From assembly GCF_900112175.1 (NCBI RefSeq), contig NZ_FOYT01000001.1, positions 1,798,001 through 1,862,000 on the forward strand: a stretch of DNA of 64,000 nucleotides, in the 5' to 3' direction. A program made the translations under genes and the position numbers. The stretch's first letter is position 1, and every line of letters starts with the position of its first letter. This stretch comes from Halogeometricum rufum. Its GTDB lineage: Archaea; Halobacteriota; Halobacteria; Halobacteriales; Haloferacaceae. Below, one piece after another: positions 8,392 to 13,028 of the stretch. Under the pieces are notes generated by a model, which had not been told where the DNA came from, did not search any database, and saw only the letters and a list, made by a program, of their open reading frames with translations.

Positions 8392-9006
8392 TCAGACGCG
8401 GCGCGTCGGCGGCTCGCCTTGGGACCCGAGTCGACGGCGACGCGTCCACCGGACGTGGACGGCGCTGGCGACGACGAACAGGAGCGAACTGAACACGGCG
8501 GCCTGCGTCATCGAGAGGACGGAGAACGGGTACGCGCCGACTGCGACGGCCGCGACCAGCGAGAGCGAGAACAGCGAGAGTCCGAGGTAGAACGTGCTCC
8601 ACGTGATGTCGTTTCCGGGCACGACTTCCATGTAGACGTTCAGGTCGTCCGCCCGTTCGGCGAGACAGATCGGGTCCGCCGACGACTCGTAGGTCACGAT
8701 GCCCGCGTCGTCCATCCGCGGGAGATGCGTCTGGTGGAGGGCCACGTGGACGCGCCGTCGCTGTGTCGACGTGACGGCCTCCGGAGGCACGTCGTTCTCC
8801 CAGGCCGCGACGTGCCGGGACAGTTGGTTCAGCGAGGGCGCCTCCTCCTCCTGCATCAGGTAGTGGAGGGCGAACCGTCGCCGGTCGTTACTCAGGATGT
8901 CGAACGCGTCTCGTGCGGAAAGTGGCTCGTGCGCGTCGTCCGATGCCCCCTTCGGGCCTGCGCACTCGTCACTCCCCTGCACCGACGCTGCATCGATGCT
9001 CCCCAT
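8392..9006 (-). CDS. DUF7344-type winged-helix protein with two membrane helices
   Basis: 204 residues. Residues ~30-125 carry the haloarchaeal winged-helix pattern ARDAFDILSNDRRRFALHYL ... QRRRVHVALHQTHLPRMDDAGIV, which I associate with the DUF7344 family. Two hydrophobic helices follow (about 138-160 and 167-185) with a short basic tail, so the DNA-binding part faces the cytoplasm. It is most likely a membrane-tethered transcription regulator. It is transcribed divergently from the SipW/TasA-like cassette starting at 9272 and shares a 265-bp intergenic region with it, which makes it a candidate regulator of that cassette (inference). Confidence 0.75.
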   Translation of the reverse strand: MGSIDAASVQGSDECAGPKGASDDAHEPLSARDAFDILSNDRRRFALHYLMQEEEAPSLNQLSRHVAAWENDVPPEAVTSTQRRRVHVALHQTHLPRMDDAGIVTYESSADPICLAERADDLNVYMEVVPGNDITWSTFYLGLSLFSLSLVAAVAVGAYPFSVLSMTQAAVFSSLLFVVASAVHVRWTRRRRLGSQGEPPTRRV

Positions 9007-9271: not shown

Positions 9272-10498
9272 ATGACAAACGACACCAACATCGAACTTTC
9301 GCGGCGGAAGATCCTGGCGGGACTCGGCACCATCGGTCTGGCGTCTGCGGGGGCAGGCGCGGGGACGATGGCACTGTTCAGCGACGAAGAGACGAGCGAG
9401 AACAACAGCATCAGCGCGGGTCGACTCGATATGCGCGTCGGCGCCGGGGGCAACGCGAACGTCAACGTCGGTCCGATTCACCCGGGCGAATCGGGCACGG
9501 AGAGTATCACGCTGAAGAACCGCAACAACTCCACCATCGGGGGCGTCCTCGACGTGACGGGCGTCAGCGTGACGAGCGGCGAGAACGGACGCACCGACCC
9601 GGAGCACGAGGCGAACGACAGCACGGCCGGGCAGGGCGAACTCGACGACAAGCTGAAACTCCGCGCGTACGTGGAGAACGCCGACGGCGACTACGACTTC
9701 GTCGACGGGGCGGGCGACCTCGTCGCGGGCGACAAGAGTTCGGTCGGCAAGATAAAGGCGAAGAACCTCAAACCCCGTGCGGTCGGGTTCTCGGTGGACC
9801 CCGGCGAGACGGTGGAACTGGTCGTCGACTGGGACCTCCCCGAGAGCGTCGGCAACGTGGTGCAGACCGACGACGTGTCGCTGGACCTGACCTTCGAACT
9901 CGTGCAGGGTCCGCGCGTCCGTACGTTCACCGACGAGCAGGGACCGTTCACGGGCAACTACGGCGGTCCCGGCGACTACTCGTACGACAAGGGCTTCACG
10001 CGGACCTCGTTCCACAACAAGTTCGCGACGATGATCCACCGGACGGCCGGCGGCGACTACAAGTTCTTCGTCAAGAACTCCGAGACGGGCTCTCAGACCG
10101 AGACGACCGTCTCGTCGTCCGGTCCAGTGCCGTTCGAATTCGTCTACAACGGCCAACAGGGGCTAGCGAACCTGACCGTGGACGGGACGTCCCTCGGAAC
10201 AGTCTCCGTCCCCGAGCCGACGCTGGGCACGATGGCGATCACGGCCAATTCCGCGTACGATAACTCCGGCGACGGCTCCGTGGACGCCACGAACGTCGAA
10301 CTCGACGGTGAGACGGTCGGCTCAGGGTCGCTCTCGACGTCCGTCTCCGGTAGCGGGGAGATAGACTTCGAGACGTTCCACGTCGAGGGTCTTGACTCGT
10401 CGTCTCGATTCGTCGTCACGGGGACGGTAGACATCGAGGCGGTCGGCAACGACGGCGCGAACTACCTCGCCGAAGCGCTCCACATCGATCTCCGGTAG
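9272..10498 (+). CDS. SipW-type secreted TasA-like surface protein
   Basis: 408 residues. The N-terminus has a twin arginine (Arg11-Arg12 in SRRKILAGLG), a hydrophobic core and a cleavage region before LFSDEET, the pattern of SipW-dependent signal peptides. Residues ~45-215 form a TasA/camelysin-like beta domain: PGESGTESITLKNRNN, an acidic ...DPE...GELDD segment, and VDWDLPESVGNVVQTD. The C-terminal half (about 220-408) is a separate Gly/Ser/Thr-rich beta domain of the anchor/lectin type that I cannot name securely. It is followed after 9 bp by a dedicated signal peptidase. It is likely exported and forms or decorates an extracellular matrix or filament, as TasA does in bacteria and related bundling pili do in other archaea. 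Confidence 0.8.
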   Translation: MTNDTNIELSRRKILAGLGTIGLASAGAGAGTMALFSDEETSENNSISAGRLDMRVGAGGNANVNVGPIHPGESGTESITLKNRNNSTIGGVLDVTGVSVTSGENGRTDPEHEANDSTAGQGELDDKLKLRAYVENADGDYDFVDGAGDLVAGDKSSVGKIKAKNLKPRAVGFSVDPGETVELVVDWDLPESVGNVVQTDDVSLDLTFELVQGPRVRTFTDEQGPFTGNYGGPGDYSYDKGFTRTSFHNKFATMIHRTAGGDYKFFVKNSETGSQTETTVSSSGPVPFEFVYNGQQGLANLTVDGTSLGTVSVPEPTLGTMAITANSAYDNSGDGSVDATNVELDGETVGSGSLSTSVSGSGEIDFETFHVEGLDSSSRFVVTGTVDIEAVGNDGANYLAEALHIDLR

Positions 10499-10507
10499 GC
10501 GACCCCG

Positions 10508-11083
10508 ATGCAACTCCCCACCGACACGGACGCGCGGACGTGGGCGGTCCGGCTAGCCATCGCGCTGGTCGTCGTCCCGTTCGTCGTCTTCGCGGTTCCG
10601 CAGGTGGTCGGCGCGGACCACAGCTACGTGGTTCAGTCCGACAGCATGACGCCGACGTTCGCCGCGGGCGACGTCGTCGTCGTCGACGGTCGGTCGCCGT
10701 CGACCGTCGAGGCGGGCGACGTCATCACCTACACCGCTCCCGGTGCGAGCGTCGTCGGTGGGGGCGGGGCGAACAGAATCACGCACCGAGTGGTCGAAGT
10801 CGTCGAACGGGACGGCGGCCGATTTTTCCGTACCAAAGGCGACGCCAACGAGGAGGCGGACGGCGAACTCGTCCCCGCGAGTAACCTCGTCGGGGTCGTC
10901 ACGTTCTCTATCCCGTACATCGGGTGGGTAATCGCGTTCGGGCAGACGCGCCTCGGCACGCTCCTCCTCGTCGTCGCTCCGCTCGCGCTGCTAGCTCTGA
11001 CCGAACTGTGGACGGTCGCCGGCGGCCTCGGTCTGACCGGCGAGGACGACGACGGCACGGCGGGAGACGGAGAGGCACCATGA
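10508..11083 (+). CDS. Signal peptidase I, ER/archaeal (Sec11, SipW-like) type
   Basis: A 191-residue membrane protease. An N-terminal transmembrane segment (about 13-35) is followed by box B QSDSMTPTF with catalytic Ser46. Then comes NRITHRVVEV with His93, where the bacterial P-type enzyme has Lys, and a GDAN aspartate (Asp112), which together give the Ser-His-Asp arrangement of Sec11/SipW. A second membrane segment (about 150-172) and a Gly/Asp-rich tail close the protein. It lies 9 bp after the SipW-type substrate and overlaps the next gene by 4 bp (ATGA). The operon position strongly suggests it processes the flanking TasA-like proteins rather than acting as the housekeeping enzyme. Confidence 0.9.
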   Translation: MQLPTDTDARTWAVRLAIALVVVPFVVFAVPQVVGADHSYVVQSDSMTPTFAAGDVVVVDGRSPSTVEAGDVITYTAPGASVVGGGGANRITHRVVEVVERDGGRFFRTKGDANEEADGELVPASNLVGVVTFSIPYIGWVIAFGQTRLGTLLLVVAPLALLALTELWTVAGGLGLTGEDDDGTAGDGEAP

Positions 11084-11850
11084 AAGCGATGAATCCAACC
11101 AAGGTGCTCGCGGCGGTCGTCGCGGCGGTCGTCTTGCTCTCGTACGTCGGCGGCGTGGGCGGGTACACGCTGGCGACGATGCACGACACCGAAACCGGCA
11201 GCGTCGAGATACGAGTCGGAACGCCGACCCCCGAAGCGACCCAATGTGAGCACCCCGGTAACGGAATCGGTGTCGGTCAGAACGACTCCGGCAACGGCGA
11301 AGCCAACGGACGGGACAACGGCGAGAGCGAGGGGCACGAGAACCGCCCGAACGGACCCAAAAAGTGCCCACCGGGGCAGTCGAAGGGTTCGAACGGTCAG
11401 AACGGCGCGTCGGCGAGTTCGATGGGGGCCGGATCGTCCGGCGGTGACGACGACGGTGCAGAGTCGGACGGTTCGGCCTCCGAGACGCCCGAGACGGAGA
11501 CGAGCGCATCCACGTCGACTCCCACCGAGACGCTGACAGAGACGGAGACGGGAACCGAGACGGCAACGGAGACGGAGACTGAGACTGAAACCGAGACGGC
11601 AACGGAGACGGAGACTGAGACTGAAACCGAGACGGCAACGGAGACGGAGACTGAGACTGAAACCGAGACGGAACCGGCGACCACAGAGACTGAAACCGAG
11701 AACCCCACCGACGCGGAGACGGAGACGAGCACCGAAACCGGAGCGCCGACCGACAGTGAGGCGCCGGCCGATACGGCGACCGAGACCGAGGCCGAAACTG
11801 ACACAGAAACCGAGACTGCGACGGAGAACGAAACGGAGGCCAGCGCCTGA
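11080..11850 (+). CDS. Membrane-anchored Thr/Glu-repeat surface protein
   Basis: 256 residues. Residues ~8-30 are a hydrophobic segment followed by TLATMHDTETGSVEIRVGTP, which resembles a short SipW-type N-terminal region. A Gly/Asn-rich part then has two cysteines (TQCEHP and KKCPPGQ). From about residue 140 the protein is almost only Thr and Glu (TETE runs), coded by a 36-bp tandem repeat, down to the C-terminus. Such a tail is extended, highly acidic and a likely O-glycosylation or spacer region. The start at 11080 overlaps the signal peptidase stop (ATGA), and the stop shares one base with the next ATG. Not recognised beyond these features; its job is probably a matrix or cell-wall-spanning component. 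Confidence 0.75.
   Translation: MKAMNPTKVLAAVVAAVVLLSYVGGVGGYTLATMHDTETGSVEIRVGTPTPEATQCEHPGNGIGVGQNDSGNGEANGRDNGESEGHENRPNGPKKCPPGQSKGSNGQNGASASSMGAGSSGGDDDGAESDGSASETPETETSASTSTPTETLTETETGTETATETETETETETATETETETETETATETETETETETEPATTETETENPTDAETETSTETGAPTDSEAPADTATETEAETDTETETATENETEASA
11554..11661 (+). repeat. 36-bp coding tandem repeat, three perfect copies
   Basis: Units 11554-11589, 11590-11625 and 11626-11661 are identical and are followed by a partial fourth. Each codes twelve residues of alternating Thr/Glu with one Ala. As 36 is a multiple of three, copy-number change would keep the frame. Confidence 0.9.
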
Positions 11851-13028
11851 TGCGCGTCGAACTGACGAAACGGACCGCGCTGGTCCTCCTCGTCCTCCTG
11901 ACCGTCCTCGCCGGGGCCGGTATCGGCCTGATACAGGACGGCGGCGACTCCGACGCCGGACCCGCGCCGCCGACGGTCACCGTGACCCCGCCCGGAGACG
12001 GTGCGGTCGAAGACGGGACCGAGCGAGACGGCGACACCGGGTCCGTCGACGGCGCGGCGACCGAGACGCCCGACGGCGGCGACGCGGCGGACGGCGCGAC
12101 GACAGACGCCGAACCGACGCTCTCGGTCACCGCCACGGCGGCCGACCCCGAACCGGTACGGCACGCCACCGGGTCGGTCGACCGACTCGAAGGGACCGTC
12201 CGGACCGACGCCTCGTGGACCGGGACGGCGGACACCGCCGTCGTCGTCTACAGCGTCTGGGCACCCGACTTCGGGTGGGCCGAGACGACCCGTCGGACGG
12301 TGAACGTCGCCGGAGCCTCGACGCTGCCGGCCGACGCGGCCATCGAGACGCTCACGTACGCGACGGGAAGCAGGGCGTCGGCGTTCGAGAACCCCCGAGA
12401 CGGCACCACACGAACCACCGAGGGCCACGTCGCGGTCACCGTCGTCCTGTTCGACGGCGGCGAGGAAGTCGCCAGAGAGCGAGTCACCGACCCGTTCGGC
12501 GTCGCGGTGACGAACCTCGGGTCCACGGGCGGGTCGGCCGCCGCGTCGTCGGGTGGTGCCGGGACGGGCGAGGCGTCCGACCCGGTCGAACTCGCCGTCG
12601 GCGGGGCGGACGACGCGCCGATTCGAATCGACGGCGTCGCGCCCGGCGACAGCGGCGTCGTCCGGACCGCCGTCCGCAACGACGGTACCGAGTCCGGTCG
12701 GCTCAGCCTCCACGTCGAGAACGTCACGGACGCGGAGAACGAACTGCTGGAACCCGAACGCGACGTGGGCGACACCGACGAGACGGGCGAACTGTCCGGG
12801 GCCGTCTCCGTCCGCGTCTCCGTCGGCGAGGACTACCTCGTCGGCGGCGAGGGGACGTGGGTCCGACTGTCGGAACTGGAGACGGTAGCGTTCGCGAACA
12901 CGACGCTGGAAGCCGGTGAGACGCGTTCGCTCGACGTGGAGTGGCGCGTCGACGGGGCCGTCGGCAACGAGATTCAGAGCGACTCCGCCGTCGTGGACGT
13001 GACGCTCGTCCTCTCGCAGACCTCCTGA
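11850..13028 (+). CDS. Membrane-anchored TasA-like domain protein
   Basis: 392 residues. A single transmembrane segment (about 9-28) is followed by a low-complexity acidic linker (30-105), a first beta domain (about 110-230) and a C-terminal domain (about 245-392). The C-terminal domain shares the pattern of the 9272 gene: PGDSGVVRTAVRNDGTESG, an acidic ENELLEPE...GELSG segment and VEWRVDGAVGNEIQSDS near the end. This is the TasA/SipW-cognate signature, here on a protein that seems to stay membrane-attached. It is the fourth gene of the operon, sharing one base with the preceding stop. It could act as the assembly base or anchor for the secreted TasA-like subunit (inference). Confidence 0.75.
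   Translation: MRVELTKRTALVLLVLLTVLAGAGIGLIQDGGDSDAGPAPPTVTVTPPGDGAVEDGTERDGDTGSVDGAATETPDGGDAADGATTDAEPTLSVTATAADPEPVRHATGSVDRLEGTVRTDASWTGTADTAVVVYSVWAPDFGWAETTRRTVNVAGASTLPADAAIETLTYATGSRASAFENPRDGTTRTTEGHVAVTVVLFDGGEEVARERVTDPFGVAVTNLGSTGGSAAASSGGAGTGEASDPVELAVGGADDAPIRIDGVAPGDSGVVRTAVRNDGTESGRLSLHVENVTDAENELLEPERDVGDTDETGELSGAVSVRVSVGEDYLVGGEGTWVRLSELETVAFANTTLEAGETRSLDVEWRVDGAVGNEIQSDSAVVDVTLVLSQTS

Follow-up and report, generated by a model that had tools for sequence, protein, structure and literature searches.

Does a haloarchaeon encode a TasA-type extracellular fiber system together with its own processing enzyme? This question is raised by a cassette of four genes found in a 64,000-nucleotide stretch of the Halogeometricum rufum genome (the window). 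The ORF coordinates agree with the initial annotation in describing these genes as tightly packed, with genes 1 and 2 being separated by a 9-bp gap, genes 2 and 3 overlapping by 4 bp and genes 3 and 4 overlapping by 1 bp. In Bacillus, TasA is a fiber protein that binds biofilms together. The cassette resembles Bacillus subtilis tapA-sipW-tasA in comprising a TasA-family subunit, an accessory protein with the same N-terminal motif and a dedicated ER/archaeal-type signal peptidase (PMC10151520, PMC9674648). Moreover, just as tapA and sipW overlap in B. subtilis (PMC10151520), so too do accessory gene 3 and peptidase gene 2 here. Archaeal TasA homologs have been reported in general terms, in a passage of PMC10151520 that cites work on Pyrobaculum, and a model of the SipW-type signal (TIGR04088) is already available at NCBI. 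At the same time, a literature search, with many subscription journals falling outside its scope, returned no paper on haloarchaeal SipW/TasA cassettes and none naming both SipW and haloarchaea. Here, family membership, the fold of the gene 4 domain, peptidase lineage, signal types, co-occurrence and synteny were computed. The features considered are listed in Table 1.

Table 1. Features of the cassette and its surroundings, in window coordinates.
Feature	Position	Strand	Basis
DUF7344 gene, divergent neighbor, possible regulator	8392-9006	-	PF24035, E 4e-29
Gene 1, exported TasA/camelysin-family protein, 408 aa	9272-10498	+	PF12389, TIGR04088, TasA top PDB match of profile
Gene 1 signal peptide, twin arginine (R11 R12) and SipW-type	9272-9373	+	TasA alignment
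Gene 1 putative donor strand, residues 35-48 (LFSDEETSENNSIS)	9374-9415	+	TasA residues 29-40 in alignment
Gene 1 TasA-like beta domain, residues 50-213, including proline box	9419-9910	+	Predicted model, P71 conservation
Gene 1 C-terminal ConA-like jelly-roll domain, residues 247-408	10010-10495	+	Structure match to concanavalin A
Gene 2, SipW-like signal peptidase I, 191 aa	10508-11083	+	TIGR02228, conserved Ser46/His93/Asp112, SipW-model score
Gene 3, SipW-type signal then Thr/Glu-rich tail, 256 aa	11080-11850	+	N-terminal profile
Gene 3 SipW-type signal with donor-like start, residues 1-47	11080-11220	+	N-terminal profile match
36-bp tandem repeat coding for Thr/Glu repeats, in gene 3	11535-11701	+	4.7 copies, 91% match
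Gene 4, membrane-anchored two-domain protein, 392 aa	11850-13028	+	ORF, predicted structure
Gene 4 Ig/FnIII-like domain, residues 88-225	12111-12524	+	Model pLDDT ~95
Gene 4 TasA-like domain, residues 241-392, without donor motif	12570-13025	+	TasA structure match, profile match to gene 1
Convergent membrane protein of 118 aa	13080-13436	-	Homologs recurring at loci

Gene 1 encodes a TasA/camelysin-family protein with a SipW-type signal

Gene 1 scored above the gathering threshold of PF12389, the TasA/camelysin family of Pfam (33 bits vs. 22.5; E 6.7e-8), and above the TIGR04088 cut-off (32.1 bits vs. 19; E 8.9e-8). No match was obtained when the single gene 1 sequence was compared with the PDB by phmmer, a profile being required. 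When such a profile, built from 56 sequences (alignment A3), was searched against the whole PDB, the best matches were the TasA fiber (8aur; E 2.7e-5) and the TasA monomer (5of1; E 5e-4). The resulting alignment begins at the first mature Phe of TasA and spans the donor strand, the GTLDL strand, the PGD proline box and the last strand. Sialoadhesin matches to the same profile, being short and restricted to the vicinity of the PxDSG motif of an Ig domain, were ignored. The initial proposal that the first gene encodes a SipW-type secreted TasA-like protein was thus upheld.

On the basis of its sequence, the protein is expected to be cleaved before Leu-Phe. The predicted site, between GTMA and LF after residue 34, aligns with the Ala-Phe junction of TasA and places Phe at P2', as in SipW-type signals. 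The start codon call draws on a same-genus ortholog having a near-identical N-terminus. R11 and R12 are at least 90% conserved across the 56 sequences, with a twin arginine appearing in 223 of the 226 subunits encoded at loci L094-L158, nearly all haloarchaeal. In TasA, the donor strand comprises residues 28-38 (PMC9674648). Reading this alignment by eye, the TasA donor contacts F29 and F39 correspond to F36 and I47 of gene 1, whereas I32 appears as Glu (E39), a replacement that speaks against a fiber. The proline box is found at P71 and G72, with P71, aligned with the TasA PGD sequence, being the sole invariant column among the 56 sequences. In the predicted model, pLDDT values of the TasA-like domain are mostly 80-93, with a low stretch at residues 144-159. 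A structure search with the gene 1 model yielded no TasA row, the list being filled by a second domain.

This C-terminal domain, missed in the initial annotation, matched concanavalin A in the predicted model (VIA-align Z 11.8; rmsd 3.3; 153 residues aligned), with pLDDT values of 54-89 in this half of the protein. Haloferax orthologs align with gene 1 over nearly its full length. Many large haloarchaeal proteins (e.g., those of L059-L062) resemble gene 1 in their first 57 residues only, being 60-70% identical there. Judging from such sequences, the Tat plus SipW-type signal is a modular element borne by varied haloarchaeal proteins.

Gene 4 encodes an anchored protein with a predicted TasA-like domain

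The claim that the cassette includes a second, membrane-anchored TasA-like protein was supported by fold comparison of the gene 4 C-terminal domain, a check that the initial annotation had itself proposed. The gene 4 model (mean pLDDT 81.8) was predicted using moderately deep folding alignments that contained no TasA sequence, and no templates. Residues 241-392 of this model matched TasA (5of2) with Z 10.1, rmsd 2.9 and 137 residues aligned, at a Foldseek probability of 1.00, and two TasA entries were the only top-rank rows for this domain. Likewise, comparison of gene 4 and gene 1 profiles yielded a 99.9% match that begins at gene 1 residue 60, past the donor strand. As no PF12389 match was found in gene 4 using Pfam, the protein is termed TasA-like by fold and gene 1 profile match only.

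The first domain of gene 4 is modeled as an Ig/FnIII-like fold. Its top match was RbmA, the Vibrio cholerae biofilm scaffold (Z 10.1), yet a specific RbmA identity was dropped, given how factor XIII and other Ig-like domains scored within about 1 Z unit. At Haloarcula-type loci, an anchored TasA-like domain is present without this first domain. In some relatives, the gene 4 ORF presents a long, cytoplasmic-looking N-terminal extension before the anchor (L064, 5844-7724; L081, 5230-6741; L082, 5105-6793); the start codons may have been mis-called.

The presence of a ConA-like domain in gene 1, the two beta domains of anchored gene 4 and the large size and varied further domains of many SipW-type proteins in relatives are all in line with a secreted or surface lectin-like adhesin system that relies on the SipW-type export route and does not polymerize. 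In such a system, gene 1 would be a ConA-like carbohydrate binder with a TasA-like adaptor docking on gene 4. Such an arrangement is nonetheless rather unlikely, as conservation clusters in the segments of the donor strand and proline box, namely, the fiber interface of TasA (PMC10151520), while the sequence of the ConA-like domain is poorly conserved between relatives.

Gene 3 combines a SipW-type signal, a donor-like start and a Thr/Glu-rich tail

Gene 3 had been described as a Thr/Glu-repeat membrane protein serving as spacer. The repeat was confirmed. The assignment as a membrane protein was not, since the sole hydrophobic stretch of gene 3 is its N-terminal SipW-type signal, with the sequence after residue 47 being a disordered, Thr/Glu-rich tail. 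Nor can gene 3 be considered a mere spacer, in that it and its counterparts carry not only a SipW-type signal but also a donor-strand-like N-terminus.

No usable match to gene 3 was found in family libraries. Still, at some 30 loci, the gene directly following that of the peptidase, often overlapping it, encodes a protein with a SipW-type signal and no TasA domain. Gene 3 was detected (E 1.5e-6, for a nominal 4000 sequences) by a profile constructed from the N-termini of such genes with the window left out, as were all eight other gene 3 copies tested (weakest E 0.001), such E-values, drawn from small custom databases, being nominal. Three of the eight (L069, L073, and L075) are identical or close to training sequences, leaving the window, L067, L068, L071, L072, and L077 as independent test cases.

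The gene 3 signal contains no twin arginine. Its predicted mature start, TMHDTE, parallels LFSDEE of gene 1, AFNDI of TasA and AFHDI of TapA (PMC10151520), and the putative donor-strand-like N-terminus is, as such, reminiscent of TapA. The match to the signal is modest, and the signal could remain uncleaved. Gene 3 also shares with TapA a position beside the peptidase gene. It differs, however, in its Thr/Glu-rich tail and in the apparent absence of the V-set Ig domain that follows the donor strand in TapA, for which no family match was found in gene 3 using sequence libraries only, the tail being repetitive and of low complexity. Gene 3 was not classed as TapA.

Gene 2 encodes a SipW-like signal peptidase that accompanies SipW-type signals

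The assignment of gene 2 as a dedicated archaeal/ER-type signal peptidase was corroborated at several levels. The protein exceeded the cut-off of TIGR02228, describing archaeal signal peptidase I (104.6 bits vs. 51.85), and S46, H93, and D112 are invariant in the peptidase alignment (A2). On the Bacillus SipW equivalog model NF046067, gene 2 scored 90.4 bits, below the cut-off of 190, while the three other signal peptidases of the genome scored 28, 24, and 23 bits. By these scores, the genome's four signal peptidases include a single SipW-like enzyme, gene 2. It would presumably work like SipW, although it is not classed as Bacillus SipW. Another of these four peptidases (L090, C1 ~66631) adjoins genes encoding a DUF1102 exported protein and a DUF5305 protein, together forming a parallel exported-protein/peptidase module.

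Among 148 genomes of the family, SipW-type signals were detected in 85 and a gene 2-like peptidase in 86. Both were found in 84 genomes and neither in 61. In the three discordant genomes, either the signal alone was found (one genome, 70% complete) or the peptidase match was only partial (two genomes). This co-occurrence is reflected in a Fisher p of 5e-38, a statistic that ignores shared ancestry. Phylogenetic control was provided by a within-genus check, in which at least seven genera (g1, g6, g11, g12, g22, g25, and g27) proved to hold both states, with the two traits agreeing in the listed genomes of these genera, bar one partial peptidase in g11.

A scan of genome contigs with gene 1 alone returned no relatives. 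Related loci were instead found in a species-genome collection with the signal peptidase alignment, that is, using peptidase sequence only. SipW-type genes were found near the peptidase at 78 of 80 loci identified in this manner. Such peptidase loci include Methanosarcinales, a Thermoplasmata bin and some bacteria. In Methanosarcina relatives (L156, L160, and L164), two different signal peptidase genes flank a signal-bearing gene that resembles gene 3.

A second SipW-type PF12389 protein is encoded elsewhere in the H. rufum genome (L002, 598-1860, minus strand; C2 ~87774), with no peptidase nearby. Relatives contain up to 16 SipW-type signals per genome and, since these are scattered far from the peptidase in some genera, not all SipW-type substrates are cassette parts. 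Such distant substrates, including that in H. rufum itself, would be explained were gene 2 a general peptidase for all SipW/Tat-type signals, with its neighbors being merely substrates that do not assemble jointly. This explanation is considered quite improbable, given that gene 3 and anchored gene 4 belong to an ordered set that stays together across different chromosomal places, and given the domain common to genes 1 and 4.

The gene order of the cassette is conserved in relatives

In relatives, one or more signal-bearing subunit genes are again followed by the signal peptidase gene, gene 3 and anchored gene 4, an arrangement that recurs at more than one chromosomal location and hence is not due to chance. 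At the same time, three-gene Haloferax cassettes without gene 4 exist and five Haloferax cassette loci contain no recognized gene 3, such that neither gene is obligatory.

Two further genes beside such loci were overlooked in the initial annotation. DUF7344-like genes are present at 59 of the 100 cassette-type loci examined, and that in the window is a possible regulator. Homologs of the 118-aa membrane protein appear at 26 of the 100 loci, including 16 of 18 in which the gene 4 first domain is found, and also at several loci of the Haloarcula type that encode an anchored TasA-like protein, at differing chromosomal places. The 118-aa protein is thus possibly a fifth member of the cassette. Bacterial promoter and terminator scans of the locus, inapplicable to Archaea, were set aside.

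A proposed fiber system

The historical Pfam name of PF12389, Peptidase_M73, would make of gene 1 a camelysin-type metallo-endopeptidase, a reading rejected as highly implausible given the lack of an HExxH zinc motif in the 408-residue sequence and the best PDB relative being the matrix protein TasA.

Instead, the cassette is probably a haloarchaeal TasA-type extracellular fiber system with its own processing enzyme. Within this system, we infer cleavage, donor-strand exchange, polymerization, polarity and a matrix role, as follows. Gene 1 would be exported via the Tat route and its SipW-type signal cut by gene 2 before Leu-Phe, so freeing an N-terminal donor strand that would enter the groove of the next gene 1 subunit. 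Gene 1 would thereby polymerize, with the ConA-like domain displayed along the fiber. Gene 3, with a signal and donor-like start and no TasA domain, may be a donor-only nucleator or cap, in the manner of TapA, while gene 4, with its TasA-like domain and anchor and no donor motif, may be an acceptor-only base tying the fiber to the cell. In B. subtilis, the TasA monomer complements itself and is soluble until exchange takes place (PMC9674648), behavior that would fit a subunit being exported by Tat in folded form.

At 65 loci (L094-L158), 226 donor-plus-acceptor, 44 donor-only and 25 acceptor-only ORFs were counted, with some of the last being fragments or users of other signals. The existence of these classes suggests a fiber with a separate start and a separate base. 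A full division of labor, comprising donor-only gene 3, donor-plus-acceptor gene 1 displaying the ConA-like domain and acceptor-only gene 4 as membrane base, with the Tat-exported subunit being processed by a dedicated peptidase for SipW-type signals borne on Tat substrates, is offered only tentatively.

The proposed fiber system would differ from those previously described. Relative to B. subtilis tapA-sipW-tasA, the subunit bears a Tat-type twin-arginine signal, and a ConA-like domain and the membrane-anchored TasA-like gene 4 are additional. Two TasA-family proteins are encoded together with SipW in the Bacillus cereus sipW-calY1-bc_1280-calY2 operon (PMC10151520), yet in the present cassette, one member of the pair is membrane-anchored, has two domains and does not carry the donor motif. 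Among Archaea, the bundling pili (AbpA) of Pyrobaculum calidifontis are TasA-related donor-strand fibers, according to work cited in PMC9674648 and PMC9715654, but belong to a different phylum, and an AbpX chain was only a weak profile match (E 0.12). The Sulfolobus thread filament (Saci_0406) is described in PMC9715654 as a donor-strand filament for which a separate nucleator or cap has been proposed (candidate Saci_0405). No sequence match between it and the cassette proteins was found and, unlike here, no dedicated signal peptidase is mentioned in the passages considered.

Implications for haloarchaeal biofilms and Tat signal cleavage

Haloferax volcanii biofilms stain for amyloid-like protein, with only a tentative candidate gene having been named (PMC4180959). 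SipW-type proteins resembling TasA occur widely among haloarchaea, and the cassette represents a testable candidate for the protein fibers of haloarchaeal biofilms. As the SipW-type signal was detected in the H. volcanii genome, included as a control, a genetically tractable test exists. Finally, the literature has yet to settle if Tat signal peptides are substrates of archaeal signal peptidase I (PMC4343526). The near one-to-one correspondence seen here between a distinct peptidase lineage and a Tat-type signal class bears on this question.
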